This document shows positions 11,685 to 63,720 of a stretch of DNA of 64,000 nt, piece after piece. A program made the position numbers and the translations under genes. The DNA is from Branchiostoma floridae (taxonomy: Eukaryota; Chordata; Leptocardii; Amphioxiformes; Branchiostomatidae): NCBI RefSeq assembly GCF_000003815.2, contig NC_049990.1, forward strand, positions 8,940,290-9,004,289, written 5' to 3'. The notes under the pieces are model-generated. The model was not told where the DNA came from, did no database searches, and saw nothing but the letters and a program-made list of their open reading frames with translations. The number at the start of each line of letters is the position of its first letter. The stretch's first letter is position 1.

Positions 11685-12496
11685 CTTTTCTTTGGAGGTA
11701 CTGATGGGAGTATCCGCGCAAAAGCATATGCCCTTCTGACGATTTTTATTGCAACAAATTAGCACTCAATATATGTGAGCTTACTATGTATTTTATGTAT
11801 AAATAATCTTGATAGGTTTCACCGAATTACATGACAGTTTTACACAAATAAGTGTAATAGACGCTACTTTGATATCTACAAATTACACATTCAGAACCTT
11901 AGTGAAAGCACGGTAATTTAAGACCGCCACAAAACGGATATAAGTTGATATATCCTCCGCAATCTCATTATCTGTGTTGTTTGAACAATTTTTTCTCTTT
12001 GTTGACTACAAAAATATATTTTGTCGATAAAATTGGTTTAAAATTATAAATATTGCTGCAATTATGTCGTCAACATAAATAAAAGGCGATAAACTTTATT
12101 TGCGCATCGTTGCGGTGATGCACCTGTCAGCTATCCCGCCCGGTGGTTGATGGGCAATTTGGGTTATTCTATCTTTTAAGGGTGTATAAATAATACCTTT
12201 GAACAATATAAACAAAGATTTTGACGTTTTTAAAAGGAATATTTCGATACTAGTGTCCAAATTATCATTAAATTTGATTTGTAATTTGATTATATGACAT
12301 TTTTTTAAAATTTAAATGACTTTTTTGTTCGTTGTGTAGTATCTGGACATCTGAATATCTCAGTGGAAGAGTCTAACATCTAGGGTCAACGTACGTGAGG
12401 TCAGTGTTGCAAAAAGTTGCAAGTCTTGCATACATAGGAACGTCTTGCACCATTTGGGCTCGAGTTTTGCAGCTGCCGCGGAGGTTTTGCGGCACG
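11685..12496. promoter_or_regulatory. Shared divergent promoter region
   Basis: These 812 bp separate the start codons of SPRYD7 (minus strand) and the selenoprotein gene (plus strand). Both 5' UTRs and probably both promoters must lie here. The part nearest each ATG is GC-richer, while the middle is AT-rich. I see no obvious TATA box placed for either gene. A bidirectional promoter is inference from spacing alone. Confidence 0.5.
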
Positions 12497-14983
12497 ATGG
12501 CGACCGGTGGGGGAGAGAAGCCCCTCATCAACATAGACGTGGTGTCAGATGTGATGTGACCCTGGTGTTGGGTCGGGAAGAGGAAGCTAGAGGTACTAAG
12601 GAACTTTCTATTCTACGTTTAAACTTTGACAAACTTTTAGGGGGCGTTTCTCAATATCTAGAAGTTACTCGAACCTTCATGTTTTTGACATTTAATCATA
12701 CTTGATCTAATTAATTTACTAAGCAAGGACGTTATGTTAGAGCAATGCTGGTCTTCCTAAATTTACCATGAAGTGTTGTCAAGATCCCCATATGCAGGCC
12801 CTCAGAAAGCATCTCCATATCTTACTGTTAGTCATGCATATTGTATATTGCACATACAGGAGGCCATGCGGATGTGTAAGGAGAAATACACCTTTAACGT
12901 CAGCTGGCAGCCCTACCTCTTACGACCCAACATGCCTTCAGATGGGATGGAGAAACCTCCTCAGTACAAGGGGTAATGGAGTAGCTACTGTAGTAGTAGT
13001 AGTAATACTAGTAGTTGTAGTTACTACAATTCCCCCCAGGTAGTAATAGCCTGGTATCCAGCCGTAATATAGCTCCCGAGTCTCTTCTCTCCTCTTTGCA
13101 ATTACGTAATTGCAAAGAGTAGAGAAGAGACTCAGGAGCTATATTACGGCTGGATGCCGGGCTAAGGTAGTAATACTAGTAGTAGGAGTAGAATCTAAGT
13201 GTCAAGGAAGGGCAACAACGGCCACAATGCTTTGATATCCGCCGGTTGCCATAGCAGGACCACTCTAGCCATTTCTTCATGTCAGCTAGGGTTCATAATG
13301 GCTAATGTTTAAAGGGCTTTTGAATCAACAAATGCACAAAAACGGTGTTATTGACCTCTTGTTATTTGTGCCCCAGGGTGAGCGACCATCTGAAGGCAGC
13401 CGGCCAGTCTGTGGGGATTGACTTCACGGGGAAGTGTCCTCGCTTTCCCAAAACCATCCAGGCGCACTGTCTCCTGGAGCATGCTGGGAAGGTACCGGAT
13501 GGAGGGAAGACTCAGGACAAGATGGCAGAAGTTCTCTTCAGGGTTTGTTTCTTTTTTTATAATTTGTTTTGCATAACCGGTAAACAACCTTTTGGCATAA
13601 CACACCAATTTTCGTGCAAGGTTCGTAAAACCCATCTGAAAGGCTTGAACCACTCACACTGGAATGGACCCCTACTCTTTTAGATAAGTGTGGTGGGTTC
13701 TTTAAAGTGCTTGAGGTATGGCTCTTCCCCAACATACTCACGTCACAGGACCTCCAATTGACGACCTGAGGAACGGCCCTAGCCAAAGCGANNNNNNNNN
13801 NNNNNNNNNNNNNNNNNNNNNNNNNNNNNNNNNNNNNNNNNNNNNNNNNNNNNNNNNNNNNNNNNNNNNNNNNNNNNNNNNNNNNNNNNNNNNNNNNNNN
13901 NNNNNNNNNNNNNNNNNNNNNNNNNNNNNNNNNNNNNNNNNNNNNNNNNNNNNNNNNNNNNNNNNNNNNNNNNNNNNNNNNNNNNNNNNNNNNNNNNNNN
14001 NNNNNNNNNNNNNNNNNNNNNNNNNNNNNNNNNNNNNNNNNNNNNNNNNNNNNNNNNNNNNNNNNNNNNNNNNNTAGGCCAATTCCTCAGGTCGTCAATT
14101 GGAGGTCTTAAGTGCCTTTCCCAAGGGCTCAAGATTGGTGACATGGCAGGTTTTGGACCCAGGTTCTCTTGGGCCTGAGCCCAAAGCGCTGCCGATTACA
14201 CCACACAATCTCACTGACTCTGTCCTTGCCAGGCGTACTTCACAGATGGCATGTTACCATCTGGTTACAACCTGGTGGAGCTGGCTAAAGAGGTGGGGAT
14301 GAGCCAGGAGGAGGTGGAACCAGTCATCTCCAGCCAGGACAACCAGACAGCTGTCTTCAACAAGGCAGGGCAGTACATGAAGGATGGAGTCACAGGTCAT
14401 TCATTATATGTGTCTCATTCTTAAAACAGCACAATTTAACCTTCTCCCTGTTAGATGACTTAGAATGGTTTAGGTCCCCCACTAATGGAACAGTTGATGC
14501 ATGCGGACTGAGCCCTCTGTGGTGGGGGCGCAGTGAAGTCTGGTTCAAAGGACTCAAGTGTGAATACATTGTGGTTCTGTTACATGTGTTTGTGCTTGAT
14601 TATTCCCTGACAGAAGAGGGATAGAGGCCAGTTAACACTTCATGCAAATGATTCCAAACCATAGCCCGGCAGAGTAGCTTTCAACGACAACAAAACATGC
14701 AGAACATTAAAAAAGATAATCATTAGCATAATTTGTATATACTCCTTGATAAACACTTATTTAGATTGCAAACCCTCTTGAAAATTTGCTATGGTTGATT
14801 CTCATTGGGATAATGTTTATAAATAATTGTTTTCTTTTTTTTTTAGGCGTGCCGTTTTTCTACATGAACGGCCGCCCGGCCTTCTCCGGTGCCCAGGACC
14901 CCGGCAACTTTGTCTACTGTTTCCAGAAGGCTGCGGAGAAGTTTCCTGCAGGAAAGGGTGGGGCTGGTCAGAGCTCCATGTGA
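12497..14983 (+). CDS. FrnE/DsbA-like oxidoreductase, selenoprotein (UPWC)
   Basis: Five exons (12497-12592, 12860-12972, 13377-13542, 14233-14395, 14847-14983) give 675 nt, 224 aa, with GT..AG borders and matching phases. The product is a thioredoxin-fold DsbA/FrnE family protein. Its N-terminal strand IDVVSDVM leads to the redox motif, where family members have C-P-W-C followed by V/I-G-K; here codon 21 is TGA (12557-12559), then PWCWVGKRKLE. The helical insertion includes GIDFTGKCPRFPKT, LEHAGK and LFRAYFTDGMLPSGYNLVELAKEVGM. The cis-Pro strand GVPFFYMNGRPAFSGAQ is near the C terminus. The frame stays open for 203 codons after the TGA through four exons, and a SECIS is in the 3' UTR, so TGA is read as selenocysteine. 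The likely role is thiol/disulfide redox chemistry; the substrate is unknown. No signal peptide is seen, so it is probably cytosolic. The N gap lies inside intron 3 and removes no coding sequence. Confidence 0.95.
13048..13163. repeat. Long near-perfect palindrome (arms about 58 bp)
   Basis: The sequence folds on itself around ATTACGTAAT at 13101-13110 with almost no loop. The arms carry AGCCTGGTATCCAGCCGTAA at the outer end and complementary AGTCTCTTCTCT and CTCTTTGCAATTAC inside. It sits in intron 2 of the selenoprotein gene and looks like a foldback MITE. Confidence 0.9.
13609..13791. repeat. Dispersed repeat, intron 3, left of the gap
   Basis: Phrases such as TAAGTGTGGTGGGTTCT, GCTTGAGGTATGGCTCTTCC and GCATAACACACCA recur, diverged, near 44030-44160 and 55045-55210. 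They mark a three-copy dispersed family. The right end (13749-13782) is one arm of the inverted repeat that brackets the N gap. Confidence 0.6.
13792..14074. other. Assembly gap (283 N)
   Basis: Unresolved bases in intron 3 of the selenoprotein gene. The gap is bracketed by inverted copies of GACCTCCAATTGACGACCTG (left 13749-13782, right 14075-14107). The missing part is therefore probably the middle of a foldback structure. Confidence 0.95.
14109..14212 (-). repeat. tRNA-derived SINE head (minus strand)
   Basis: On the minus strand the sequence reads GTGTAATCGGCAGCGCTTTG (A-box-like), then GAACCTGGGTCCAAAACC (B-box-like). CCCTTGGGAAAGGCACTT follows, a 3' phrase I associate with deuterostome tRNA-derived SINEs. 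It lies directly upstream of exon 4 of the selenoprotein gene. Confidence 0.6.
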
Positions 14984-15496
14984 ACTGAAAAATCTACATG
15001 ACTACCATAACCTGAGAAGTCTAATTTTGAGTTTGCTCTTTCAATGCTATAGCAATAGTAATCTTTAACATACCAGAGCACTGTAGATGAACACCCTCTA
15101 GCAAGTAAATTGTGAATTGCAGTTAGCTCACAGTTCCATTATGTCAGCAACTACTTCTCAACATAAGGTTATCAGACAATGCCCTACCAAAATTGATACC
15201 ACAATCTATTGTGGTCTTGAGGATATGTTGAGCTTTTTCTGACAATCGTTATTCTTTCCTTGAAGTCAAAGGTTTTCTTTTAATTCTATGCAAGTTAATT
15301 AAAATTGCAGTATAATGGTCATTGCAAAGTCTTTATTTGCAGATAGACTGAACATTCAAATCGTATCTGTGTTATGATTCAACCAATTAATGACTTTTAA
15401 TGTGTAAATAAGAATACATCTGATTGGTCGGATATATGGTGCCTTTGGTAAAATGACTAATGATTGTTCTTGAGACATGAACTCTTGGCTGCCCCT

Positions 15497-15567
15497 GCTA
15501 ATGCTCCATGATGGCACTGGGCCCAACTGAATGCTCAGTGCCTGATAAACTTCAGCATTGCATGGAG
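15497..15567 (+). ncRNA. SECIS element
   Basis: This is a textbook eukaryotic SECIS stem-loop. The 5' half of the quartet is ATGA at 15508-15511 and the 3' half is TGAT at 15543-15546. Between them a 10-bp helix (GGCACTGGGC paired with GCTCAGTGCC, one G-T pair) closes an apical loop CCAACTGAAT with the conserved AA at 15525-15526, 13 nt after the ATGA. Below the quartet, AATGCT pairs with AGCATT. It lies 525 nt downstream of the stop codon in the sense strand. Its role is to recruit SBP2 and the Sec elongation factor so that UGA at codon 21 is decoded as selenocysteine. Confidence 0.93.
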
Positions 15568-15579
15568 GCTTTCTGTAAG

Positions 15580-15585
15580 AATAAA
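15580..15585 (+). terminator. Poly(A) signal AATAAA
   Basis: A canonical hexamer just downstream of the SECIS, in the position expected for a 3' UTR of about 0.6 kb. Confidence 0.75.
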
Positions 15586-15600
15586 ATGTCTCAAAACCAC

Positions 15601-17528
15601 TGCTGCCATGTCATTTTTACATTATTTAGAGTTGTGTTAAAGATTGTATAACACCATGGTACCAAAGTACAGCATTATGTTAAACAACAATGATAGCATT
15701 ATTCCATTCATATGCACGTATGCATTTGCAGCTCCTATGTTACACCAAACCCTCTTCAAACCTTGAATCACGACAGATGATTTATAACAAAGAAAGGTTT
15801 GACTTCAGCTAAAGATACTTGTATCTATCATGGGAGTTAGAACATGCTAAAAATAAAGAAACATGCGGTGCCAAATTACATATGAAATAGTGATGCATGA
15901 CTCTTCCATGTAACTTTTGTTTTGTCTTCAGGAGTTTTAACTCTATTGTTTCACTCGATGAAATCCATTTCATTGTTTTTGCAAGGAGAGCTATGCCTAA
16001 GGATCATACTTATGTTGCTCTTTACTAGCTTTATATATACACCCGGACATGTTGACATGGTGCACTTTAATTGGTAGCGGACGATAATTGGTAGCGCTAC
16101 GCTACACGAAAGGTCAAGGGTAGGACTTGAATGACTTTAAAGATCCCGATTGGACGAAAACGAAAAGACGGCGTCTGAAACTAGTGTCCGATTTTCGGCC
16201 ACTAGACGATTAAAACATTCCATGACGCAAACCCTTACGTACCAGGTATGGATCAGCTTACCTGTTTATTTTATCTGAAACACCGTTTTGTGTGTAATCG
16301 CCCCATGTCGGATTTTCTTTCGGTCGTGTTCTGACACCATGTTTGTATGTAAGTACCGGTGTCTCCGCGCATGGCCAACTCCGCTTGAATGGAAACCTCC
16401 GAAAGCGTCAATAGATGACGTCTAGCCGGTCTAGGGCATTAGCGGGCTCTTCACAATACGTTCAATGGACGGGGAGTTTCCTAAACAGCTCCTCAAGGCT
16501 AAGATAAGTTGTTGTTTTTGTCGTTCTCTTTTTATTACAGGGTAGAGCTGCATTCCAATGTAGCCTTTGAACTCGGACAAATGTGTTTTGAATGTCACAT
16601 TTACGCACTTTGCTTTTTATGTGATTTGATATAATTGTTCTCACAAGTCGCATAGTATAATTACAACATTATTTCAAGACCGTTTGTAAAAGCCAACATA
16701 CGCAAGGCCTGCAATGTCTCATCGGAATTAGAGCGTTAACGTTTGTAATATGAAGCTGGTGCTTAATTCTGTGTGGTCTTGTGCAAGTTTGAGGCGACGT
16801 CATTATAGTATAAAGTAACAAAATACAGGGTCAGAATGTAACGTTAGTTGGGATAAAGTTTGCATATAAACATTACGATTGGAATAACACAAAGGCAAAG
16901 TTTTCATACTTGGCGATATGTAGCTTAAGTAACAATCTACGTATGTTTAAGTACATACAAATTTTTGGTTTTCACATATCTAGCAAAGTCATCTTTTTAA
17001 TACGAACTTTTGGAGGGAGGGGCTTCGAACTTGCTATCTGAGGCCGCGCCAAATATAGCAGATGTTTTCGTCTCGTGAGTACCAAAATGGGGTACATGTA
17101 AACGCGAGCCTGTTTCACCAACGCAAAAATAGATGGCCCTTCTCTATTTATCCAACACTCTCTTTCTACTCGCCTAGCTACTAGTACGTCAGCACTGGGC
17201 TAACTTTTGTATGACATCAAACACAACTTCCGACCAGTCACTGACCCGTACCTCTCTGTTAGGGCTCTATTTACTAACCCGTATTTCCTATGCCACAGTC
17301 AGCTGTTGGTGCTTGTGGGTTGAGATGTTCAAACTGTCCCTACGACGTGTTTTCTGTCTTTATTACCGACTTGTGCAAACGTTTCATGTCACGGTTTAAC
17401 CATTGACGTGGGTGTAGAGGTCATCAGATAACTGAGGTGTCCATTTCCGAGTTTCCCGCCATCGCCACAGACGTCTGCGAGTAATCCTACTTCATACCAA
17501 GGTATTTACAAACTACAAATGACGGCAA
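15601..17528. other. Intergenic, with probable promoter DNA at the right
   Basis: No coding exon was recognised. The part from about 16050 to 17520 is less AT-rich with several CpGs, and probably includes the promoter and 5' UTR for the exon at 17529. TGATAG-like and TATATATA strings occur but are not diagnostic. Confidence 0.4.
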
Positions 17529-23991: not shown

Positions 23992-26900
23992 ATGGCGGCG
24001 GCCGCATCAGCTGGTTCGTATTGTTTAGTTATTTTTGCCGTTTTCTCGTTATGTCTCCTCATCTGTTGTTGAAAAACTTGAAATCCCTTTGCATATTGAC
24101 CTTAACGTTAGAATTTTGATCATGTTGATGGTAATTTAAGAAAGAAAATGGGATATTTTCTAACGGACTAGTTGGCATTATGGAAATGATGAGGTAATGG
24201 CGTCGAATTTGAAAACGTTATAACTGTCTCTACAGGCAAGCGGGCCAGCCATCCCCCGTCGCCGGGTCCTACCGCCACGAAAGCCCGAGTAGTCGCTGCC
24301 AGTCCACGGCTGGAGAAAATTCTGACCGAAAACGGAGAGAAAAACAAGACTAGAAGACAAAATCTGACCAAAAAACCGAGCGTAAACGACCTCGACCACC
24401 AACGACATGCGGACGTGACCAACTCGCAACCGTTTTCGAAGAAGTTGTTGCTACTCACGGAGGAGCATAAAACCCGCTCAGAAAAGAAAACCCGCTTACA
24501 GAAACTGGTCTTTGGTCGTAAAGGTAAGCTTGATATTCTTGCTAAAAAGCCTATCGGCGTAGAAAGCAAGAAAGTCGGCCCAGGATCAGAAAAATTCGAT
24601 GAAGAGGGTGGGGGACCCTCTTCCGGTACACACGATCCTGATGTAAACAAGATCGATAAAATCAGTGATGAGAAGGGAAGGGTTCCTGCAGTTGTACCCA
24701 GCGTTTCCTCTGATTGTGCCAGAGAGGATGCCATCTGTGTACTTCCATCAAAACACAAAGTCTCATTGTACAATGTAGAGAAAGGAGACGAAGGGAAATG
24801 TGAGAGAGTGAACAATATTGGGCAAGATACAGACTGTTCTAAGAATAGAGACCATGTCAGTGAGTCTACTGTTTTGAGTGAGCCTCAGACTATCGAACTA
24901 GACTCGAATCAGGACCCAAAGCCATCTGGAAAAGCTAGGAAAGTCCTAGGCTATGTGTCACCTTTACCTAAACCATCTTTAAGTAGGGCTGACCAATCAG
25001 AGAGATCGGTAGACGTGACTTTGGACGAATCAACTTGGAGTCTGTCGCTCGATGACAGTACGTTTAACAGTAGCAGTGTGTTTAGCAAGAGTTTTCGAGA
25101 GAAATTCAGCACGCCTACATCTGTGCGAAAGTTTGCGAGGAGTCACCTGGCCAACATTTTTACACCTCGTAGTCATACCAAGGGCTCAGATCGCAAGAAA
25201 CCTTCCATCGTACACCTGCATATTCCTTCGGATGTTGACGTTGAAGGGAATGACAAAAATTCTGGCGACACACGTAAGGGGACTTCTTTTGTAATCGCAG
25301 AAGCTTTGGAGAATGTCGTGCCGAAGGATATCACGAATGCTCCGCCAAAGTCAAAGAAAGGGTTAAAGTTCAATGGCAAGTCAAACAGAGAGATGGAGAG
25401 CTCTGAGTCTGACCAAAGCAGGAAAAGTGCAGGTGTTGTTCCTTTGAAGGTGAGCACTTTAAAATCATCAAAAGAAGTAACGTCTGTTGAACAAGTGCCT
25501 GTCACTCCGGCAAACAGGGTGGTCAGGTCACGACATGTAAGTACACCCACTACACCACGTTCAGCAAGGCCGACAGGTATTCCAACGCCTGTGAAGAAGA
25601 GATCGCAATCAGCAACCCCACAAAAATCAAACACTCCAAGTACACCTGCTAAAAGGGATGCCAATCTGGTACATTCAGGTGTTAGCGACAATGCAACTAC
25701 TGGTGTGACCAAAGATAAGGATGTAACAAGGGGAAGGACCCCCAGCAATGCACCTACAAGCAAGCAAGGTGCACCCAAGAAAGTCAGCAATGCATCATCC
25801 CTAAAACCTTTGCATACCAATGGAAAGCAAAGCACCGCATCAACAAATAAGGGTCCTAAAAATGGCCAAAGCCTCAAGCCAGGGCAGCCTGTGAAAAAAG
25901 TAAGCCAGGAGTCAAGAGTTCGAAAGGAAAGTGGGAAAACAAAGACTCCACAGAGCCCGAAACAACCACCCGCAAAACCGCAGACAGAGAAACCAGCAAC
26001 ACATGCCAAGCGGAGGCCGAGGGCAGCAAGACCCAAAACAATGGTCATAAAGAGTACAGATATAGTGGATATACCTTTGACTAAATCCAACTCACAGCCA
26101 GACCTAACAAATCTAGAGGCTACCAATGGAACAGATGCTGTCATGCCAACAAAAGAAGAGGAATCATCATCTAATAACACAAAGGAAAACTCAGTGTCAG
26201 AGCATCAAAAAGCCCCAAAGGTAGCCAAAAAGGATTTGCTGAAAGTCCCAGATAAAACAACTACAAGGAGGAGCCTTGGGAGGCCGGAAAAGGGTTTAAC
26301 ATCTGCGACAAAGAAAACGTCATCTGAAGAGGTTGACCCAGCTGCGGGTAGGAAAGCTAGCCAGAGAGCTGCGAGAAGTCTGGTCACTAATGCTAAACGA
26401 CAGAGCCTTGGGGTAGGGAAACGGAGAAGCATAACTCCTGCAAGAGGACCACGTCAATCTCAGACTGATAGTGGCTCCAAAGCTACCGGTACCACCAGGA
26501 GGACTGCACCTTCAAATGGAGGAAGAAGATCTCTTTTGCCTGAACCACAACGGAAGACACTCTCCAACTCTGTATCAAACACTCCACCAACAAGAGTCAA
26601 GAAAAGCTCGACCGATTCTTCCTCGTCAGACGGAAATGTAAAAAGGGATGATGGAACGCCACATGAAGAAAAGCCAAAGGTCAAGAAGCCTGCTGCACCT
26701 GCGGGAAGTGGTTTATCAAAAGGTTCCAAACAGGTGTTAGCGAGTAATGGAAAAAGTAAACAAGAGATCATATCCTCTACTCGTAAACCTAGAAACATGG
26801 TACCGGCTAGTACGAAGCAAGTACTGAAAACTGCAGCAGACGAGAAAGCAAGGAGAAGATCAGCACCTCCAACCACAGGAGCAAGGCCCAAGGGACAGTC

Positions 26901-29900
26901 TACTACACTTGAGACAAGAGGTATTGTTCAAAGACAGACTAGAGTAGCTCAAAAGCAAACAAGAGTCACAAAACCAGACAAGGAGATCAAGCAGGGAACA
27001 AGTGACCCACTTTCTAGGAATAGAAAGAAAAACACTGTAAAAGAAAAACAAGCTGTTGAGAAAGCAGGGATCGTTTCATCGCGAAGTTCATCAAATGAAT
27101 CTGTAAGTGACTCTAGTGCTGTAAAAGGTAATGATGCAGTCACAGTGTTGAAGGGCACAGAAGGAATGCAAACAAATGTTGAGCTCCAATGTACAGAAAG
27201 TGGGGCTAACCCCCAGGGCTTCACTGTGGGTAATTTGATTACGCCTAATACAGACAATGGAGAAAGCAATGGTCAATTAAGCCCAATTAGTGATGACCCC
27301 CTGGCAAGTAATATTGTAAGCATGGACAACTCAATAAAAGGCAGTTCGCACGAGCCATTGAGGGAACACAATGGAGCAGAATCGACTGACAAAAGTCAGG
27401 ATGTTAGCTCTACCTTTGGCGAAAGCAGGACTTTAGATGCTGCATCATCTGTGACGAAAAATGTTGTCGGATCAAAAGAGTTGTCAGTGGTTGATGTGAT
27501 TATAACGGAAACACCTCCACAGACCTCGGACAATGCTAATCGAATCGAAGTTCAGCAGGCGAGTTCAATAGAGAAAAGTTCAACTGAGAACACGCGTGCT
27601 GACATGGATCATGGTGAAGATGTGGAATTTCCCATGCAGCTTCACGTCTCTGTAGACGACGCGCAGGGTGAGAAAACAACGGACTCAAGTTCCCAAGTAA
27701 GTGGAATAAACACGGCTAAGGAGGCTGTTACCAAGCAGGAACAACAGTCGAGTGGGATCAGTACGGGCGCAGCTGAAGGATCTGACAAAGAAGAAACAAG
27801 GTTTGTCCAGCTGAAGATCCAAGACCATAGTGATGCAGTCATTTATGAAATGCTTGATGTGAGTCAAGGAGGACAGAAAGTCGGACAAGTCGAGAGTGAA
27901 CAGAAAGAGGAAGACGTGTCTTGCATTCAAGCAGAAAACAACAGAGGTAACTACGGCAAAACTCGGCCTCCGGCAATCCAACCTCCGGAATGTTTTACCT
28001 CAACTCTACAGGTTAAGCTGAAAAGTCAAAGGAATGAAAATATGCAAGTTGACACCCAGGAACGGAGTGCTGATAGTACCCAGGATTTGACTTGTAAGCA
28101 TAACAGTTCAAATATCATTCCATGCATGGAGGGGAAAACTGATAATGAACTTCCAGAAGACGTCAGTCAAAGTTCCGCCACTGACCAGAGCAAATATTTG
28201 CGTACAGCCAAGCAGAGTGGAAAAGACCAAGTCACGTGCAATGTCGTGGAACCAAGCATGAGTGTCAAACCAGATGACGCCGATACCACGGGCCCAAAGG
28301 AAGTTGGTAAACAGTTGTCAGAGGATACGATAAGTGGCGTAGATGATTTACCAAGGTCAACACGACCTTGTGACAGTGACGACGTGCTTGATGGATCCCT
28401 TGTATCACGTGGCATGAGGCGTGCACATGGTACTTTGTCCCTTGACAAGTCCAAAGGACAAGTTGCCTGCATATTTGACAGCCCAAACAACATTACAACA
28501 GCTACAGGCATGGTGTGTTTAGACAACATGCACTCTGATTTATCCTCAAAGGATGGGCATTTCATGCTACAAGAGCTTAAAAATTATGCAAACGATAAAA
28601 TGACAGATGCCGACAATGCCCCAGAGGCACTGAATGTTGACCTAACAAACACTCAAAAGTGCGAAACAAACCCTAAGACTAAAGATATACCAGAATCGTC
28701 AAAACCACTTGCAGACCATGACAAAGAGCAGGAGGCTGAACAAATACAAGAGGAAGACAACGTCAAGGCTAATTGCAAGGCGTTTCTATTTTCGGAGCTT
28801 GGAAGTCCACCGTACAGTCTAATAAAAGACCAACCCCTTCATTCCAGTTTACCCAACATAAATGGTGGTGAGGCTGTTGAGAAAGTGGCAAGCAAAATGC
28901 CCTCCCACATGCCAATGGGCTCCCCGCCCCCAGTACGAAGACGCAAGTCAGTCTGCTTTGCAAGCTGCCCGGCTAGTCCTACCGCACCGAGGTTGCGGCG
29001 ACGCCACAGCAGTTACATCCACCCATCCCTGATGGGCCACCTTCATCATCATCAGTCGCTATCAGCTGTAGATCGTCTCTATCCAGGCGGACATCTGCGA
29101 CGGACACTGTCTCTCTCCGGCGGTCACACGCCGTCAGAACTGTCGTCGGGACAGACCACTCCCAGCGCGAGGGGAAGCCATTCTGAACTGCACCTCAGTC
29201 CGCTAGTAAAAAGGCTGCAGGAACTTTGCGAGGAGGCCGAGATGGAAGAAGGAAGGAAGCTTCGGGAACTTTGTGAAGAAGTCCAGTGGGAAGAAGGACA
29301 AAGGCTTCAGAAACTGTCCGAGGAGGTTGAACGGGAAGAGGGAATCGTGTCTCAAGATGAAGCATTGAATGAGGTGAGAAATTTTGGAGTTGACAAAATA
29401 AACTCTATTGATAAAAGCTATATGATGATATGTATAGTAAATGGTTTCACAGATCATTACTGCAAATGGCAATACAGCTTCATTTTTCACTTTTGCTTTT
29501 CAAAGACAGTTGAAAATAAGCTAAGTACACATTGTCTTTGATCAGTAAAATGTTTGAGTCTTATCACTCATACTCATACTATAGTTTATTACAGCTTTTG
29601 ATATACTCAGACAGTTATGAATTCATATTTTCAAAAAGCAGTGCTTGGTGAAAATGAGATTGTGTGCCTACAGTTATGGGTCAGTCTGTATTCTCCAAGC
29701 AGATATTACGGTGGGTAGGGTCGGCTAGTACTAGTAGTAGCCTGAAAGTCATTCTAGTTAGTTTACCTGGGCTCCTGTATGCTCCCCCCTCACCGAGCAT
29801 ATGGGAGCCCCAGTAAACCAAACAGGCCAGTTGCAGGGGGGTTGGTAGCGGCCACAATTTTTCCTCTGCCACCCTCCACAGATGGAGGAAAGAAATTGTG

Positions 29901-50900: not shown

Positions 50901-53900
50901 TCTAATTTCCTACTGTGTTGCCATAGATACAATTTAGTCAATTTTATATCCTCTCTATGTAATTAGATTCATACATCATATGATGACAATTTCATTTCAA
51001 GGTATATCTTTATTACATTTTTATCCGTGATTTACATAAAAAAACATCAATGGCTTTTAATGTGGCTGTAATTGGAACAGAATTAATGCTTTTGATGGAG
51101 GGGCAAATTTAATCGACTATTTGATGTTTTTCTACTTAGATAAGACCAGACCTGTTGAATAAGACTAAGGTCAACGTCCTAGCATATATTATGTATAATA
51201 ATTTTTTTTCCCTTCTTGACATTGTGTAATGTCTAAGAAAAAAATGCTGTATTCTGGTAACCCAACAGACCCTAGTAAACCTAGAAAGTAAACTAAGATT
51301 GGATGAATTGCCTGGTTGGAATCATCATATTTCTTGGCAGTCATCATATTTCTAACTAAAACATCATTAAATTACCTTTGGCCATTGGTCGTTAAAAGAT
51401 AGAGAAAGTTTTAGCCTGTATTGTCACCAATTTTACCAATTTTGCCCCAAATCCTCTCAATGAGTGTGCAGGGTTGAACAAGTCCAGTAGTCCACTTGCA
51501 AGTGAAAGTGCTGATCGGCAAGCATATGTCCTACCCCACTTGCCCGATCGGAAGAATCTTACTCGTTTGGGCAAGTAAATCTTTTATGTTCTTGCCCGAT
51601 AGGACAGGTGAACTTTAGAAAACTTGTCCAACCCTGGTGTATTGGGTTCTTTTAACATTGGTTCTTCCTTTCACAGATGTTTGAAGAGGAGGATGAGGTG
51701 ACGTATGCGGAAGCCCTGTGGGATCATGTGACGATGGATCCCGATGAGCTGGGCTTCAGGGCCGGGGAGGTGATAGAAGTGACGGACCTGAACCACAAGG
51801 ACTGGTGGTGGGGCTGTATCGAGGATAGAGAGGGATGGTTTCCTGCGGCATTTGTTAGGGTATTTATCCATCATGCATTTATAGACCCATTATGAAAAGT
51901 ATAATACCACATAATGTTGTTTTGCTTCTGAAAATAAGTTCATCGGGTTGCTTGAGAAAGTAGTAGTTCTCTGAGAAAGATGGCTGATCGGCATCAAAAA
52001 GTGAGAAGCTGAAAAATTACTGGTTGTGTAAATGTTCACTTGTCTCGAGCCTGATCCAATGAGATTCATGTGCAAGTCTTGGTTTAAAACAAATTCATTT
52101 GGCAAACTGATGATGATCAACAAATAATCTCAAAGCTCTTTGACTGTTTGCCAAGATCTGGGTTGTATCCTTTTGTTTCGTTTGATGCCCTGTATGAATC
52201 AGAATGTTCTCCAGTTTTTCATGCTGTATGTCCTTGAATGTTTTTTCCAGTTGAGAGTTAACCAGGAGGACACAGTGGAGGACTATGTTGCAAAGATGAG
52301 GCAGGGAACCAGTGTCAATCTGCGCAGATACAGCGTGAGCTTCTGTCAGAACAAGGACCAGATGAGAAGCAATGTGGTCAACGAGATCCTCAGCACAGAG
52401 AGGGACTACATCGGCCACTTGAGAGACATCATTGAGGTAAATATTCGTTTGTTCATGTCTTACTCAAAGTTACTCCATAGACATCCAAAGACTTGGACAG
52501 AATTAGACTTGATCCATTCCCAAAAAATTGCTTTATAATATTCCGTTTCTAGGTAGGCTTTTGAAACAAAGCATTTGAAAGATTTTAATTTGAATCCAGG
52601 GAATCTTGTAAAGGCTACTGTAGTATGACAGACTGTTAGCAATCGACAACTCTTTCCTTCAATCTTTTAGATTATATTAGAAGGCTGCTAATGCCATCAT
52701 TATGAAAGATGTTTTAGAGAGTGTACCATAGTAGCCGTTATGTAGATGCTACAAAGATTGTGATGCTAAAAAATAGTAAGAAATTATTTTGTACTGTACA
52801 GTAAATTTCTACCTCTGTTTCCCAGGGTTATGTAAAGCAGTGCAGGAAGAGGCCAGAGATGTTCTCCTGTGAAACCATAAAGACAGTGTTTGGTAACATC
52901 GAGGAGATTTACGCTTTCCAAACTAGCTTCCTGAAAACCCTGGAGCACAGCAGTAGAAGAGACCTTCCCCATCTAAGCGAAGTGGGCAAATGCTTCCTGC
53001 AGCATGTGAGTGTACTGTTTGTGATCCTTAGTATATTATAGGGATAGTAGTTTGGCAGAAGAGAAGCTCACCCACTGTCGAGTAAAATTTTTTGGGCATT
53101 GCTATGGAGCCAAACAGAACATTTTTTTGTCCATTCTCCTGTTAAAACCAAGAGGCCATTGCAGATACCTAAATTTTATTGGCACTTTAATCAAAGACAC
53201 AGGAATTGATGATGTGAACTTGAAAAAAGTAATGCTTGATAGGGCTTTATGGATTGGAGTATGTACTTGCCTAGTCCCGACTACAGATCGATAGACAGAG
53301 ATTGCCATTGGTCAGAGATCATGATTAGGGTCTCTTTCAGAACACTAAGTGAGTCTAGCTGAAGAATTCTCAACCAGAGTCAAATTGGAGTAAAATTTTG
53401 TTGAAGAGAAAGTCAGAACTTTTCAACTTATATTGACACTGACATGTAACTTAATAATGGATTGACTTGGAACTCAGGCTTTGTAAATGGAAGACCACCC
53501 TTGTTTTATTTTTGCTGTATTTGTGTTGGTTGCTAATGGAATGATGTTCACCTGCTTACTCTATGTCTCACATCTCTTGTTGCTTTATTTCAGAGAGAAG
53601 GATTTGAGATCTACTCAGAGTACTGTAACAACCATCCCAATGCTGTCACTGAGCTGAACCAAATCATGAAGAGCAAGAAGTACAGGCATTTCTTTGAGGT
53701 GAGCATCTTCGCAAGCCATCTTAAAGTTTGTATCCCCATTGAATAGTGAATTATGATACATGTTTGAGCCTTGCTAGGCTAAGTAATAGTAGAAGACAAG
53801 CCCGATGGTATAGTATTGTGGCGAGTAACTTGATAACAAGTTACGCTCACTGGGAAAACATTCTTCATTTTCGCAAAAATAATCTTTCTAGTTAAGAATT

Positions 53901-56900
53901 CTGGCTATAGTGATTTCCTGTCTACTGTCACAGTGACTATTTCATCAAGTCTTGTCTTGAGTGGACAAGTTAAGTGTAAGCATACACATTTGCTATTTGC
54001 AATTCAATATCGGAACAGCCATGCACGTGCAAAATGTATGTTGATCTTGCTCTACATGTTCAATTCTATCCCAACTAAATGAGTGATAAACAAATTGTTT
54101 CCCGTCATCAGGCGTGCAGACTGCTTCAGAACATGATTGACCTGGCCTTGGACGGCTTCCTCCTCACCCCTGTGCAGAAGATCTGTAAATACCCTTTACA
54201 GCTGGCCGAGCTGCTCAAATACACCAAGCCTGAGCACAGGTAAGGCTGCTTCACATCGAAACTCTCGTCTGTAGGACTAGGAGTAGGAGCCTGTGTTACA
54301 GAACAGGAAGGCAACACACTTAAATGTCGGTTGACTAAAATGTAAGGTTGTGTACGAAGTATTTTGTTTTTCAAGATAGAAGATATAATCTAATTTCGGG
54401 GACCACAAAGATCTAAAAGCTGCTGTTGAAGCAACAAAAACAACTCAATTTTCCATGTTTTCTTGATCCTTGGGCAAGTAAGACTTCACAAGAAAACTTT
54501 TCAAATTTCTCTTCAAGGGATCACGAAGATGTAAAGGCAGCGTTGGAGGCCATGAAAGACGTTGCAAACCTAATCAACGAGAGGAAGCGACGCTTGGAAA
54601 ACATTGACAAGATTGCGGGATGGCAACAGGATGTAGAAGGATGGGAGGTAAGATGAAGTCATTTATCTTTCTTCCTTTGTTCTTTAGATATATATGATAT
54701 GAAGTGCCTTGAAGATATTTGTCATCTTCTCTTTGATGTACTTAGTACAAGTCAGGCAGTTTTTTAAAACATTTTTTTTCCATTAAACAATCCATCCATT
54801 GCCAGTCTAACTTCTTCCTTTGGTCTTAAGGTTCTGTAATACCATATGAATGTTGAACGTTATTAAACATCGTCAGAGCACTTAAAACATGTTAGATATC
54901 TTATCTGATGTACATTTTCAATAAGCCTAGTGTACAATTAACATGTCTAAAGTAGGTACTGCTGTACACAGTCTATCCTTAGCACAGATTGAATGAGGAT
55001 GTTTTGAGTGTAAAAAAATTAATGTTTGTTTCTGTTGCATAACTGCCAAAAGTCCTTTAGGCATAACACACCAGTTTCGTACAGTAGGTACATGCTTCAT
55101 AAGACTGGACTGTAATATTTGATTCCCTTACACTGGGAAAGACCTTTTTGATAAAGTGATCGGTACTCTGACATGCTCAAAGTTTGTCTGTCCTCAAACA
55201 TGTGACTTCTGGCTTTACCGGTATGTCCCATCTGAGAGGACTTTCCAAACTGTAGATAGTTGCCGACTTTCACCTCAGTCATGTGGGGAATAGAGCACAA
55301 CTTTGGGGCCTACTAGGTATTCAAATGCAGAACCTTAAGGTTCAAAATTCAAAGTCAGCAACAAGACCACCTTGCAGCAAAGGAGTCACACCTATCAACA
55401 AAGAGTAGCATCTAGTAACAAAGGAGTAATGTTTCTACATCTTACCTGAAATGTGTTACTAAATGCCTTGTTTTGTTGCAGGGTGAGGATGTTCTGGACA
55501 GGAGCTCCCAGCTGATTTACAAAGGAGATGTACGGGTCATCACGGCAGCCAGGGGCAAAGTACAGGACAGGACCCTGTTCCTCTTCGACCACCAGATGGT
55601 CTTCTGCAAAAAGGTGGGTTCAATGTTGTCAAGAGCTGTGCTGTGAGTCTTGAAATATCTGCGGTAGTTTTGTGTTAGTGGTTTTTTTGCATTGATCCCT
55701 CTCCTGCAAATCATTACACAGCAAATATTTGTCCAGTGTCCCCAGCGTAAACCTAAAAACATGGCAAACATGCTCTTTTTCCTCACTTAATGGCTAGATC
55801 AAGTCCCTTTGAACTTAAAATGGATTTACAGAATGTTGATTCATATTGCTTGTGGATGTTTTTTGCAATGTAATTTAGACTGTTACACTCTCAAATTTTG
55901 TACAAGGATTGTTTTTTCCAACTCCTGGGTCTCATTGTCTAATTGTGTTGTTTGTTTGTTTTACAGGATTTGTTGAAGAGGGACAGTGTAGCTTATAAAG
56001 AGAGGATGTTGACTGGCCCATGTCAAGTTAAACCCATCCCAGATGGAAAGGGTATGACATTGTGTACTTTATTTTTACTAAACAATTTATATATTGTAGA
56101 CTTGTAGTACAACTTGTTGTAGCGTAACTACGCTACAAATTTATGCCCATAGATATAAGATAATTGTGAGCAAAGTCGACAGTAAAAGCTAATATTTTTA
56201 CCCTCATGAAAATGGACTACGAGGTACATGTATTGTAGTCAGTTGGTGTGTTTCTTAGTGTGACCAGGTGTCAAGATACATTGTATGGTGTAATACAAAT
56301 ATAGGATACTTGGAGAACCAAAAGTCTGATTTTGCCCATTTTTGTAGATAGATTGGTAGGTAGGAAGTGATGACTCATGTCTGGGCCTTAGGAACACCCA
56401 TCTGAAGATTTTTTCATTCTCTATTTCAGACAAAGAGTTGCAAACCTCTGTGAAGAATGCTCTGAAACTATATGACATGGACAAGGAGAAAACGTACATC
56501 CTCTGTCTGAAGACTCCTGAGCAGAAGATGCGTTGGCAGGATGCCTTTCAGGAGGAGAGGGAGAAAGTAGCAGACGATAAGAAGAAGGGATTTGAGATTC
56601 CCCTCGATGTGAGGAAGAACGCTATGAACAAGTCGTTCCGCAACAAACCATGCAAGCCTAGAGCAGGTAAGCCAAATGTGGAACATTTTTGTATCGGGAC
56701 ACGTTCGAGGAGTCTTTGACAACTCCTATATCCTTAGGGCCTTAGAAAATGTTAAAGAAAACGAATGCATGTTGGGAAATGTCTTGTTGCAAAACAAGCT
56801 AAATGTCTTACCGGTAATGCAGTCTTTAAACCCTCTAAATTTCAGAAGTCAAGTCTGTGTAGCAGCTAAGCCTTCAAAGAAACCCAAGATTTTGACATAT

Positions 56901-60255: not shown

Positions 60256-61229
60256 GCGTACATAGAACCTTCTTTAGTAATGATCAATCAGATCCTACGG
60301 TGCCATAAGATAGTATCAAAGCTGACCAAGGATTGATATCAAAGCTGATCCGGAGTTTAGCCGGCTACGGGAGTCAAACAGGCACGGGAAGTTTGATACT
60401 ATAACTAGACATTACGCACCGTGGATCTGGTTGGAGATTACTTCTTCAGTAGATTAGCAACCGGCTGCCCCTACGGCCTTAGAGAGGCATGGCAAATACA
60501 GTTGTGAAATTAGTGACTAGCGCATTGTTGGTGGTTAATGGCCGTGTATATACTAGTATCTTGCCAATTAGCGCTACAGAGTTCTGGATTTTACATAAAG
60601 TGGTAATAGGCCTTGGGAGAATAACAGCTGCAGTGGGTTACAAAGAATGCTGCAATGTGATCTATAATTTTTTATTAATTTGACAAACGTAAAGACTATT
60701 GGCATTCGTAATTAAAAAAAGGAGAAAATCTCTACCTACTGACAATATCTTTAAAGACCGTTGTACGAAACACAACATTTATTTCCAAGGACGAAGATTA
60801 CAGACTTACCTCGTATGCAACTGAAACCTTGCGTAACTAGCATTAATCAAGGCCATTATATAACGCCCTTGCATTAATTGACCTAAGTCAGTTATGTAGT
60901 GGTTTTCAACGGTGCTCGATCAGCTCATTTCCTTCCAGCATTGACAAGATCGGCTGATGTGTGAAACACCTGGTGATGTTTTGTAAGAGTCAAAATTGGA
61001 TTATGATTTGCGGCAGCACACCAAGCGCGATCGCTGTGAGATGAGTAGTATTGAGTTATATGCTCATAAGTAGTGGAATTGATGACATTTGCGGTTTCAA
61101 AAGGCGTATTTCGTTCCTATGACGATTTTTTCCTTTTGACTTTGAAGCGCTGCTTGCTTCTTTCCCATCAAACAACATCGATGAAAACACGTTGTGTAAA
61201 ACGTGAAAGAAAACATTTCATAACATGCG
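60256..61229. other. Intergenic, possible GPCR promoter region
   Basis: No supported exon. The right part lies just upstream of the GPCR first exon and probably holds its 5' UTR. Confidence 0.4.
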
Positions 61230-61292
61230 ATGGAAAAGTATATAGGTACACATTTGCAACCATCATTGGACCTTTCGCTACTTGACTATACG

Positions 61293-61598
61293 ATGGCTGG
61301 GATCGCCAACGGAACCGGACTCGCCGACGACACTAACGGCACGGCCGAAGACGGCTGGCCTACGATCCTTCCCTCCGAACTTAAGGCGACGTTCGTCAGC
61401 CTCATTGACCTGGGTCTCGTCCTGGGGAACGTCTTCGTGGTGGTGGTGATCCTAAGGGCTCCGTCGCTAAGAAACTACACGGGTTACCTGACTGTTTCCC
61501 TGGCGTGCGCAGACATGTTACCGGGTCTGTTGGTCATCCCCTTCAGCGTGAAGCCGGCCTGGACCGGGCACTGGATGTACGGCGAAACACTCTGTATG
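61293..61598 (+). CDS. Rhodopsin-class GPCR, first coding exon (partial gene)
   Basis: There are 102 codons from ATG (an earlier in-frame ATG at 61230 would add 21) to donor ATG|GTAGGT in phase 0. The extracellular N terminus MAGIANGTGLADDTNGTAED has two N-glycosylation sequons (N-G-T). TM1 contains the class A G-N motif (LVLGNVFVVVVILR). The first intracellular loop is APSLRNYTGY. TM2 contains the conserved L-A-C-A-D (LACADMLPGLLVIPF). Loop 1 has WTGHWMYGETLCM, whose Cys is the usual TM3 disulfide partner. The pattern is close to aminergic-type receptors, but the ligand cannot be named from this much. TM3-TM7 are not in the window and must lie in later exons. Confidence 0.88.
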
Positions 61599-63720
61599 GT
61601 AGGTGTACACAAATAAATAAAATAGTAGATGTCCACAAGCGTAGTAACATGGAGGTCACTTTCGTCGTAGGACGCGTACGCCGTACGCCTTTTATGTCTT
61701 TCGATTTATCATTTGCAAAATGTAACAAGATATCACCTGTAAAGTCATGACGGCATTGCTGATGTTTGAGAGTCAACATATGGCACGGACAGCTAGCATA
61801 CTAGTACATACTAGTACACGAACATACTAGTAACATAGACAGAGATTTAATTTTGAAGTAAGCCGTCACGTAACAAACCGCCGACAAGGCTTTAAGACAG
61901 AATTTTTGGTAACAAGAAAACTGATCTTTGCACCACACGAACACGACTATTTTTAGAATGTTCTCACTTTGAGATCAATCGTATGAAGATCGTACTACGG
62001 ATGTGACCAGACTCACAGGTGTGTATTGTACGACTGGTATGTATGACAGTAGATTTGGAAAATTATTGGGCAGTCATTCATGTATCGTGTACCTACCTTG
62101 TTCAGCCGTCTTTCGAATGGTCGGGTGGGTCATAGCCTCCACAAAAATCGGACGAAAAATATCTCACGACATATGATGTGTAACTGAGGTTTTAGGTTCA
62201 ACAGGTTTTGTTGTGTTATATGTTTTTATTTGCATAAAGGCGTGGGTGGTGATTTGTCTAGTCGAATATTTCAAATCATAGCAAAGGAAAACGTTGAGAT
62301 ATCAGTCTACAATTTTCCAGAGAGCTCCGCAATTGGATCGTACTCAAAGCTGCCAATTGTTTGGCCTCTTTTTTTTCTTACGTTAATGTTCACCAATGGG
62401 CGAGAGAAGTAACATTATCCTTACTGTGTTTTGAACAAACCTACAAGCGCAAGATGAATGCTTAAAATTTCCAAGGTCAGCGCTTTTTTTTTGGATTAGA
62501 GCCCCCAGGGGAAGCAATTGTAAACTTAAGAGATACAACTAAGTATAAACCGTATCTGTTTATTGCGTGTTATGTGAAGTAGAATTGAGTTACTGCAGGC
62601 ACGCAATATCGTGTATTTTAAGATACTTATGGTAGTCTTCAAGTAGATTTATCGGTGGAAAGGCAGTATGTGTTCAAAGGACCAACATGGTATCCAACCG
62701 GCTCCCGCGGCCGGTTGCATAATAGTTGGCCGCTTGGATACTGCCTTGCCACCGATACATCTACTTGGAGATTTATTACGTAAGGTGGAATCCGACCGAT
62801 CAAAACATTAAGACAAAGTCACCGTTTTGAGCCATTTTTTTTTCAATTTGCCGCTTGAATTTTCCGCCATTCTGTCCACACGGAGTTTTGTGGCCGGAAC
62901 TTGTCAGTAGCTAGGTTATACAAAAAAATAAGAGCTTTCGCCCGGCTCGCTTTCGCACTGTTTACCAAAGCAGGAGCAGTGAAAGTCATGAGAATATGTG
63001 AAAATTGATAGCAAAATCAGATTATCAATAATCGAAAACATTTGTAGTGTTGGCACCAAAATTCTACACCTTTAAACGATTTGAACTGATCATTTTACTT
63101 AATCTAAGATAATATGCTCTCTGCTTCACCAAATGTCCCTTTGTTTGATGAATAAATGGGCTAATTGCTGAAGATCCGGGTCAATTGTGGACTCAAAGCA
63201 AGAGATGATTTACGTTGCTAAGACTGCAAATTGAAGAACAGCTATTCACACACACACTACAAACATTGTTATTACGCTTAGCCCCAGATCTCCTCACACC
63301 GACCTATTTTTCTCGGCACTGTTTTTTATTCATAAGAAAAGTTGACAAACATGTATCCAGAAGTTGTTTTTGAGATCAGCACAAGATTTCGCAACATTGC
63401 ATTGGCCAATAGTTATTTGCGATATAAATGAAGAAAAGAAGAGGAACGTTATTTCATGACAATTGTAAAGGATACAATGTGTGGCAACGTACAAACAAAG
63501 CATACAAAATAGTTGAACTATGTGTGTTATAGTATGTATATAGTTGATTTATTTGGACAGCATGCACTCCGGACAGGGGTAACAGAATATTGTTTTTGAT
63601 ATTGGAACTGTTACCTATTTCAAATTCAATGTCAACTGGACAATCTATTTTTTATTCAAAAATATTATCTGCAGAATCAGAACAATTGTTTCTGATGTTG
63701 AGGCCCCGCTCAAGCCGACA
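61599..63720. other. Probable GPCR intron 1
   Basis: No second GPCR exon was recognised. The foldback repeat at 62637-62770 lies here. Short open frames have no family support. Confidence 0.5.
62637..62770. repeat. Foldback repeat with nested hairpin
   Basis: The arms CTTCAAGTAGATTTATCGGT.. (62637-62669) and 62736-62770 are complementary with few mismatches. AACCGG..CCGGTT around CTCCCGCGG forms an inner hairpin. A small MITE is likely. Confidence 0.8.

Follow-up and report, generated by a model that had tools for sequence, protein, structure and literature searches.

The stretch of Branchiostoma floridae DNA analysed here (64,000 nucleotides, hereafter the window) carries on its plus strand, at positions 12497-14983, a five-exon gene encoding what is almost certainly the selenoprotein of DsbA/FrnE type that has been published for this amphioxus species. 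An earlier note, made from the letters of the sequence alone, had read the same interval as encoding a thioredoxin-fold protein of this family with selenocysteine (Sec) in its active site, and it is very likely that the gene it singled out is a true selenoprotein gene and that its family was rightly named. The gene is thus real and was correctly read, but it is not new, since the Sec-containing DsbA of B. floridae is already in the literature. As a discovery the result therefore adds little; it confirms a published animal selenoprotein family on a chromosome-scale assembly, and it shows that a true Sec codon can be recovered by the reading of raw sequence.

Gene structure and active site

The five exons join as a single 675-base frame in which the sole internal stop is a TGA. 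The coding part of exon 1 (12497..12592, phase 0) begins with an ATG at 12497 and holds the U-P-W-C site; exon 2 (12860..12972, start phase 0), exon 3 (13377..13542, start phase 2) and exon 4 (14233..14395, start phase 0) are each delimited by the joined frame together with a protein match; and exon 5 (14847..14983, start phase 1) includes the cis-Pro strand (GVPFF) and closes the frame with a TGA stop at 14981-14983. GT...AG borders are present at all four introns and the exon phases are compatible, while several stops arise if the acceptor of exon 3 is placed a single base earlier or later. A run of 283 undetermined bases (N, 13792-14074) is contained in intron 3. The internal TGA (12557-12559) is codon 21, occupies the first position of the CXXC motif and is most likely read as selenocysteine; after it, the frame of exon 1 continues as PWCWVGKRKLE up to the GT donor, and the frame is open and conserved on both sides of the TGA. 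The earlier note had placed this TGA at the first Cys of a C-P-W-C motif and had described four further exons of consistent phase leading to a normal C terminus with a cis-Pro strand, and both statements stand, the joined frame holding TGVPFF in its C-terminal part.

With Cys substituted for Sec in protein searches, the 224-residue product matches the Pfam DSBA family (PF01323) over residues 13-203, at an E-value of 9.1e-31 and 107.6 bits against a cut-off of 25.6, so that the domain covers nearly the whole protein. Among solved structures, four distinct sequences were matched at E-values up to 0.001. The closest are those of Deinococcus FrnE (5cp1 and 5cnw; E about 2.5e-23, query residues 10-221), followed by SCO1869 (3gl5; E 5.9e-12) and VP2116 (3kzq; E 3.2e-4). 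The FrnE/DsbA-like affiliation proposed in the earlier note is hence supported by both PF01323 and the FrnE structures. Matches were also obtained in 788 plasmid records, the best place in each having less than 60% identity, and the top matches among those listed are annotated as DsbA family oxidoreductases. A search for bacterial relatives in genome contigs yielded 24 pattern matches, none of which was confirmed.

Six bacterial relatives, picked for taxonomic spread from 40 listed plasmid records and sharing 30-34% identity with the amphioxus protein, were aligned with it. This comparison with Cys homologues, which the earlier note had proposed as a check, places a Cys at position 21 in all six (motif CPWC in four, CPFC in two), and the TGA therefore stands at the catalytic cysteine of the family. 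The amphioxus redox motif, U21-P-W-C24, lies near the N terminus, as one of the CP(W/F)C type, and P22, C24, V181 and P182 are invariant in the seven aligned sequences. V181-P182, within the TGVPFF of the C-terminal part, corresponds to the Val-cis-Pro loop of the family, its cis form being known for the fold. The C-terminal CX4C of Deinococcus radiodurans FrnE is absent from the amphioxus protein, which ends in ...GGAGQSSM. Among the bacterial relatives, the motif is present in two (L018 and L020) and missing from two (L019 and L021), the remaining two (L017 and L022) being cut at the end of the match. Many FrnE proteins have the CX4C, but it is not obligatory for the type, since some are described as lacking it in the available text of PMC8945050.

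After residue 63, the amphioxus protein also lacks 10-11 residues that all six bacterial relatives possess. The gap (residues 63-71) lies near the junction of exons 2 and 3, which falls in codon 70, and it may reflect either a natural deletion or an unrecognised small exon in intron 2 (12973-13376). When this intron was scanned for stop-free segments of 18-63 bases bounded by AG...GT, 20 candidates emerged, but by eye none resembles the family. The same intron contains, at 13045-13166, a long near-perfect inverted repeat. Several microRNA-precursor models match it on either strand without reaching their gathering scores, and its appearance is that of a hairpin repeat, of MITE type or otherwise, and not of a microRNA.

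Elsewhere in the window, and likewise on the plus strand, a stop-free stretch of 1782 codons (24193-29541), rich by eye in Ser, Lys and Thr and with no Pfam match, probably represents a single large exon that encodes part of a disordered protein. Weak RhoGEF and SOS1/NGEF-like PH pieces, under Pfam cut-offs, suggest a RhoGEF gene at 52128-56719, and further on, at 61224-61616, a receptor of the rhodopsin type begins (PF00001, E 1.5e-10).

The SECIS-like element and the selenocysteine tRNA

The earlier note had also reported a SECIS in the same transcript as the gene. Scanning and folding locate a SECIS-like stem-loop on the plus strand of the 3' flank (15488..15573), with a core formed by ATGA at 15508 and TGAT at 15546, ten uninterrupted pairs and a 10-base apical loop, CCAACTGAAT, beginning with CCAA. 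The core (15508-15546) starts 525 bases past the stop codon, outside the 12497-14983 interval, and we infer from this position that the element belongs to the 3' UTR and hence to the same transcript. A candidate polyadenylation signal, AATAAA (15580..15585, plus strand), begins 34 bases beyond the core. The fold of the element, 86 bases long, has an energy of -33.3 kcal/mol (z -3.00), none of 200 shuffles being equally stable, and its single apical loop would make it a form I SECIS.

The scan rule (an [AG]TGA, a helix of no fewer than 9 pairs, AA or CC near the start of the loop, and GA as the 3' core) was made ad hoc after the candidate had been spotted by eye. It gives four hits on the plus strand of the window and two on the minus strand. 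In first-order Markov shuffles (n = 30) the plus strand carries 1.77 hits on average, with a range of 0-4 against the four observed, and a SECIS-like fold on its own is therefore no proof. The hit at 15508 is nevertheless the only one that falls in the 3' flank of the gene and the only one to attain ten pairs, and about 0.02 hits would be expected in the 637 bases of that flank, where one is observed. No SECIS was returned by Rfam, either for the whole window at gathering score or for 12400-16500 at E-values up to 10, which counts against the element. By the ad hoc rule, the ATGA ... AA loop ... TGAT arrangement of a eukaryotic SECIS is present in both motifs and fold.

The genome searched comprises 513 Mb in 431 contigs, the window being on contig 12. 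A search with the selenocysteine tRNA model RF01852 gave 12 matches, four of them above the cut-off; the model also matches all 14 control genomes (five above the cut-off), so that weak matches mean little. Six of the RF01852 loci were submitted to ARAGORN, which called three as tRNA-SeC with anticodon TCA (L009, L010 and L011) and three as tRNA-Ser (L012-L014). The organism has tRNA-Sec. The three TCA loci are separate, on contigs 1, 17 and 5, respectively.

Searching the same genome with the protein gave five matches, every one of them an exon of the gene; the match to exon 1 covers query residues 1-34 and includes one TGA. A search with exon 1 found a single place, the same gene. The PF01323 profile, in turn, found three matches, all on contig 14, and missed the gene itself, because profile matching runs exon by exon. 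Since this search missed even the known gene, a distant, exon-split Cys paralogue may exist elsewhere in the genome.

Rival readings and proposed function

It is very improbable that the gene is a Cys-form FrnE gene whose normal Cys codon (TGC or TGT) shows up as TGA through an error of sequencing or assembly or because of a private allele. A single base separates TGA from either codon, and the exon 1 search, in finding one copy only, leaves no second allele for comparison. Furthermore, PMC7269912 describes the earlier and the later B. floridae assembly as built from shotgun reads of one animal, and the two are hence not independent witnesses of the TGA if the assembly used here is the one described there. 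The available text of PMC2874816 is silent on EST coverage of the TGA. A Cys-form gene, however, would need no SECIS, and yet a SECIS-like element stands in the 3' flank; moreover, Sec forms of the family are reported from Ciona (PMC2874816) and from Nematostella, Lottia and Capitella (PMC3473315). There is an equally slight chance that translation begins past the TGA, in keeping with an earlier database model that, according to PMC2874816, assigned the first exon to the 5' UTR, or that exon 1 holds a genuine stop and the locus is a pseudogene in decay. The residues ahead of the TGA (INIDVVSDVM) are nonetheless matched in the alignment by the N-terminal region of the bacterial relatives, the remaining four exons are open and conserved, and the retention of a SECIS would be unexpected in a pseudogene.

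Several subfamilies fall under PF01323, and a search of NCBIfam with the window protein matched no family model, which could be taken to favour another member of the DSBA clan, such as GST kappa, over a protein of the FrnE type. The three PF01323 matches on contig 14 are themselves presumably GST kappa-like, judging by the appearance of the reading frames at L003. For the gene studied here, such an assignment is nevertheless the least probable of the alternatives, because FrnE and a DsbA oxidoreductase are the closest of its relatives with solved structures, the top listed plasmid matches carry the DsbA annotation, and a CPWC-type motif is retained.

For a DsbA/FrnE-type selenoprotein gene, established eukaryotic selenoprotein biology predicts that Sec-tRNA and SECIS-binding factors would insert Sec at UGA-21 and that the final UGA would terminate translation. 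The U21 selenolate would attack disulfides, C24 would resolve the selenylsulfide and the cis-Pro loop would hold the substrate; by analogy with FrnE, the Sec-Cys pair would reduce or exchange disulfides. In the available text of PMC8945050, FrnE proteins are predicted to be cytoplasmic thiol oxidoreductases, and for Deinococcus FrnE the proposal is one of disulfide reduction in the cytoplasm, with the C-terminal CX4C regenerating the active site. Inspection by eye detects no N-terminal signal peptide in the amphioxus protein; a cytosolic location is hence the likeliest, and with it a role as a cytosolic thiol-disulfide oxidoreductase of the kind predicted for bacterial FrnE. Given that the CX4C of Deinococcus FrnE is missing, the protein is probably recycled by a reductant other than a CX4C of its own. 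The proposal that Sec allows the animal protein, as a reductase of the cytosol, to dispense with the CX4C recycling motif and to be recycled directly by thioredoxin reductase or glutathione must be regarded as doubtful. A literature search at the level of titles found no biochemical study of an animal Sec-DsbA/FrnE, a result that does not prove that none exists.

Comparison with known systems

The earlier note was unsure if the family had been reported in a Sec form from any animal. That uncertainty is removed by two publications, of 2010 (PMC2874816) and 2012 (PMC3473315). The former (Jiang, Liu, Ni, BMC Genomics 11:289) describes a Sec-containing DsbA in B. floridae, whose published record is XP_002210295 / BRAFLDRAFT_120127, with the Sec-TGA in the first exon and Sec in place of the upstream Cys of the CXXC, and it reports that the earlier database model, besides treating the Sec-TGA exon as 5' UTR, lacked the last exon, that the ORF was lengthened using ESTs, and that a genomic SECIS with an AA motif lies downstream (COVE 18.83). 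The gene in the window thus shares with the published one the species, the family, the position of Sec, the first-exon Sec-TGA and, further downstream, a SECIS or SECIS-like element that has an AA motif, and no difference was found between the two when compared by description, as far as the available text of PMC2874816 allows. Copy number also agrees, one Sec DsbA being attributed to B. floridae in the accessible portion of PMC3473315 and one locus being found in our genome searches.

The wider distribution of the family is likewise documented. According to the portions available to us, PMC3473315 attributes two Sec DsbA proteins to Nematostella and a single one to each of B. floridae, Lottia and Capitella, records Cys forms from sponge and Trichoplax, and considers the DsbA selenoprotein family lost or replaced in vertebrates, with replacement described for higher vertebrates. 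SelenoDB 2.0 annotates the animal family as FrnE (DsbA), the main text of the paper making no mention of amphioxus or Branchiostoma (PMC3965025), and cnidarian dsbA genes are described in PMC3640398, which cites the 2010 paper. Outside animals, Sec FrnE/DsbA proteins are on record from algae (PMC6627142; PMC7539508) and UXXC DsbA-like proteins from prokaryotes (PMC1088965; PMC13188914). The Sec DsbA proteins of Ciona intestinalis and C. savignyi are, like that of amphioxus, animal Sec forms of the same family, but the SECIS of both Ciona species is described as form II, with an extra minihelix (PMC2874816), in contrast to the single 10-base apical loop of the amphioxus element.

Among bacterial systems, the FrnE of D. 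radiodurans has Cys rather than Sec and possesses, at residues 239-244 as given in the available text of PMC8945050, the C-terminal CX4C that is missing from the amphioxus protein. The two are homologous, the CPWC of the Deinococcus protein (DR_0659; 5cnw, 5cp1) aligning with the amphioxus UPWC.

Bacterial selenoprotein genes differ from that of amphioxus in carrying a bacterial-type SECIS immediately after the UGA. The nine DsbA-like selenoprotein sequences reported from Sargasso Sea bacteria (COG2761; PMC1088965) have the UXXC motif, in a DsbA-like protein, in common with amphioxus, and the accessible part of that report shows the SECIS downstream of the UGA.
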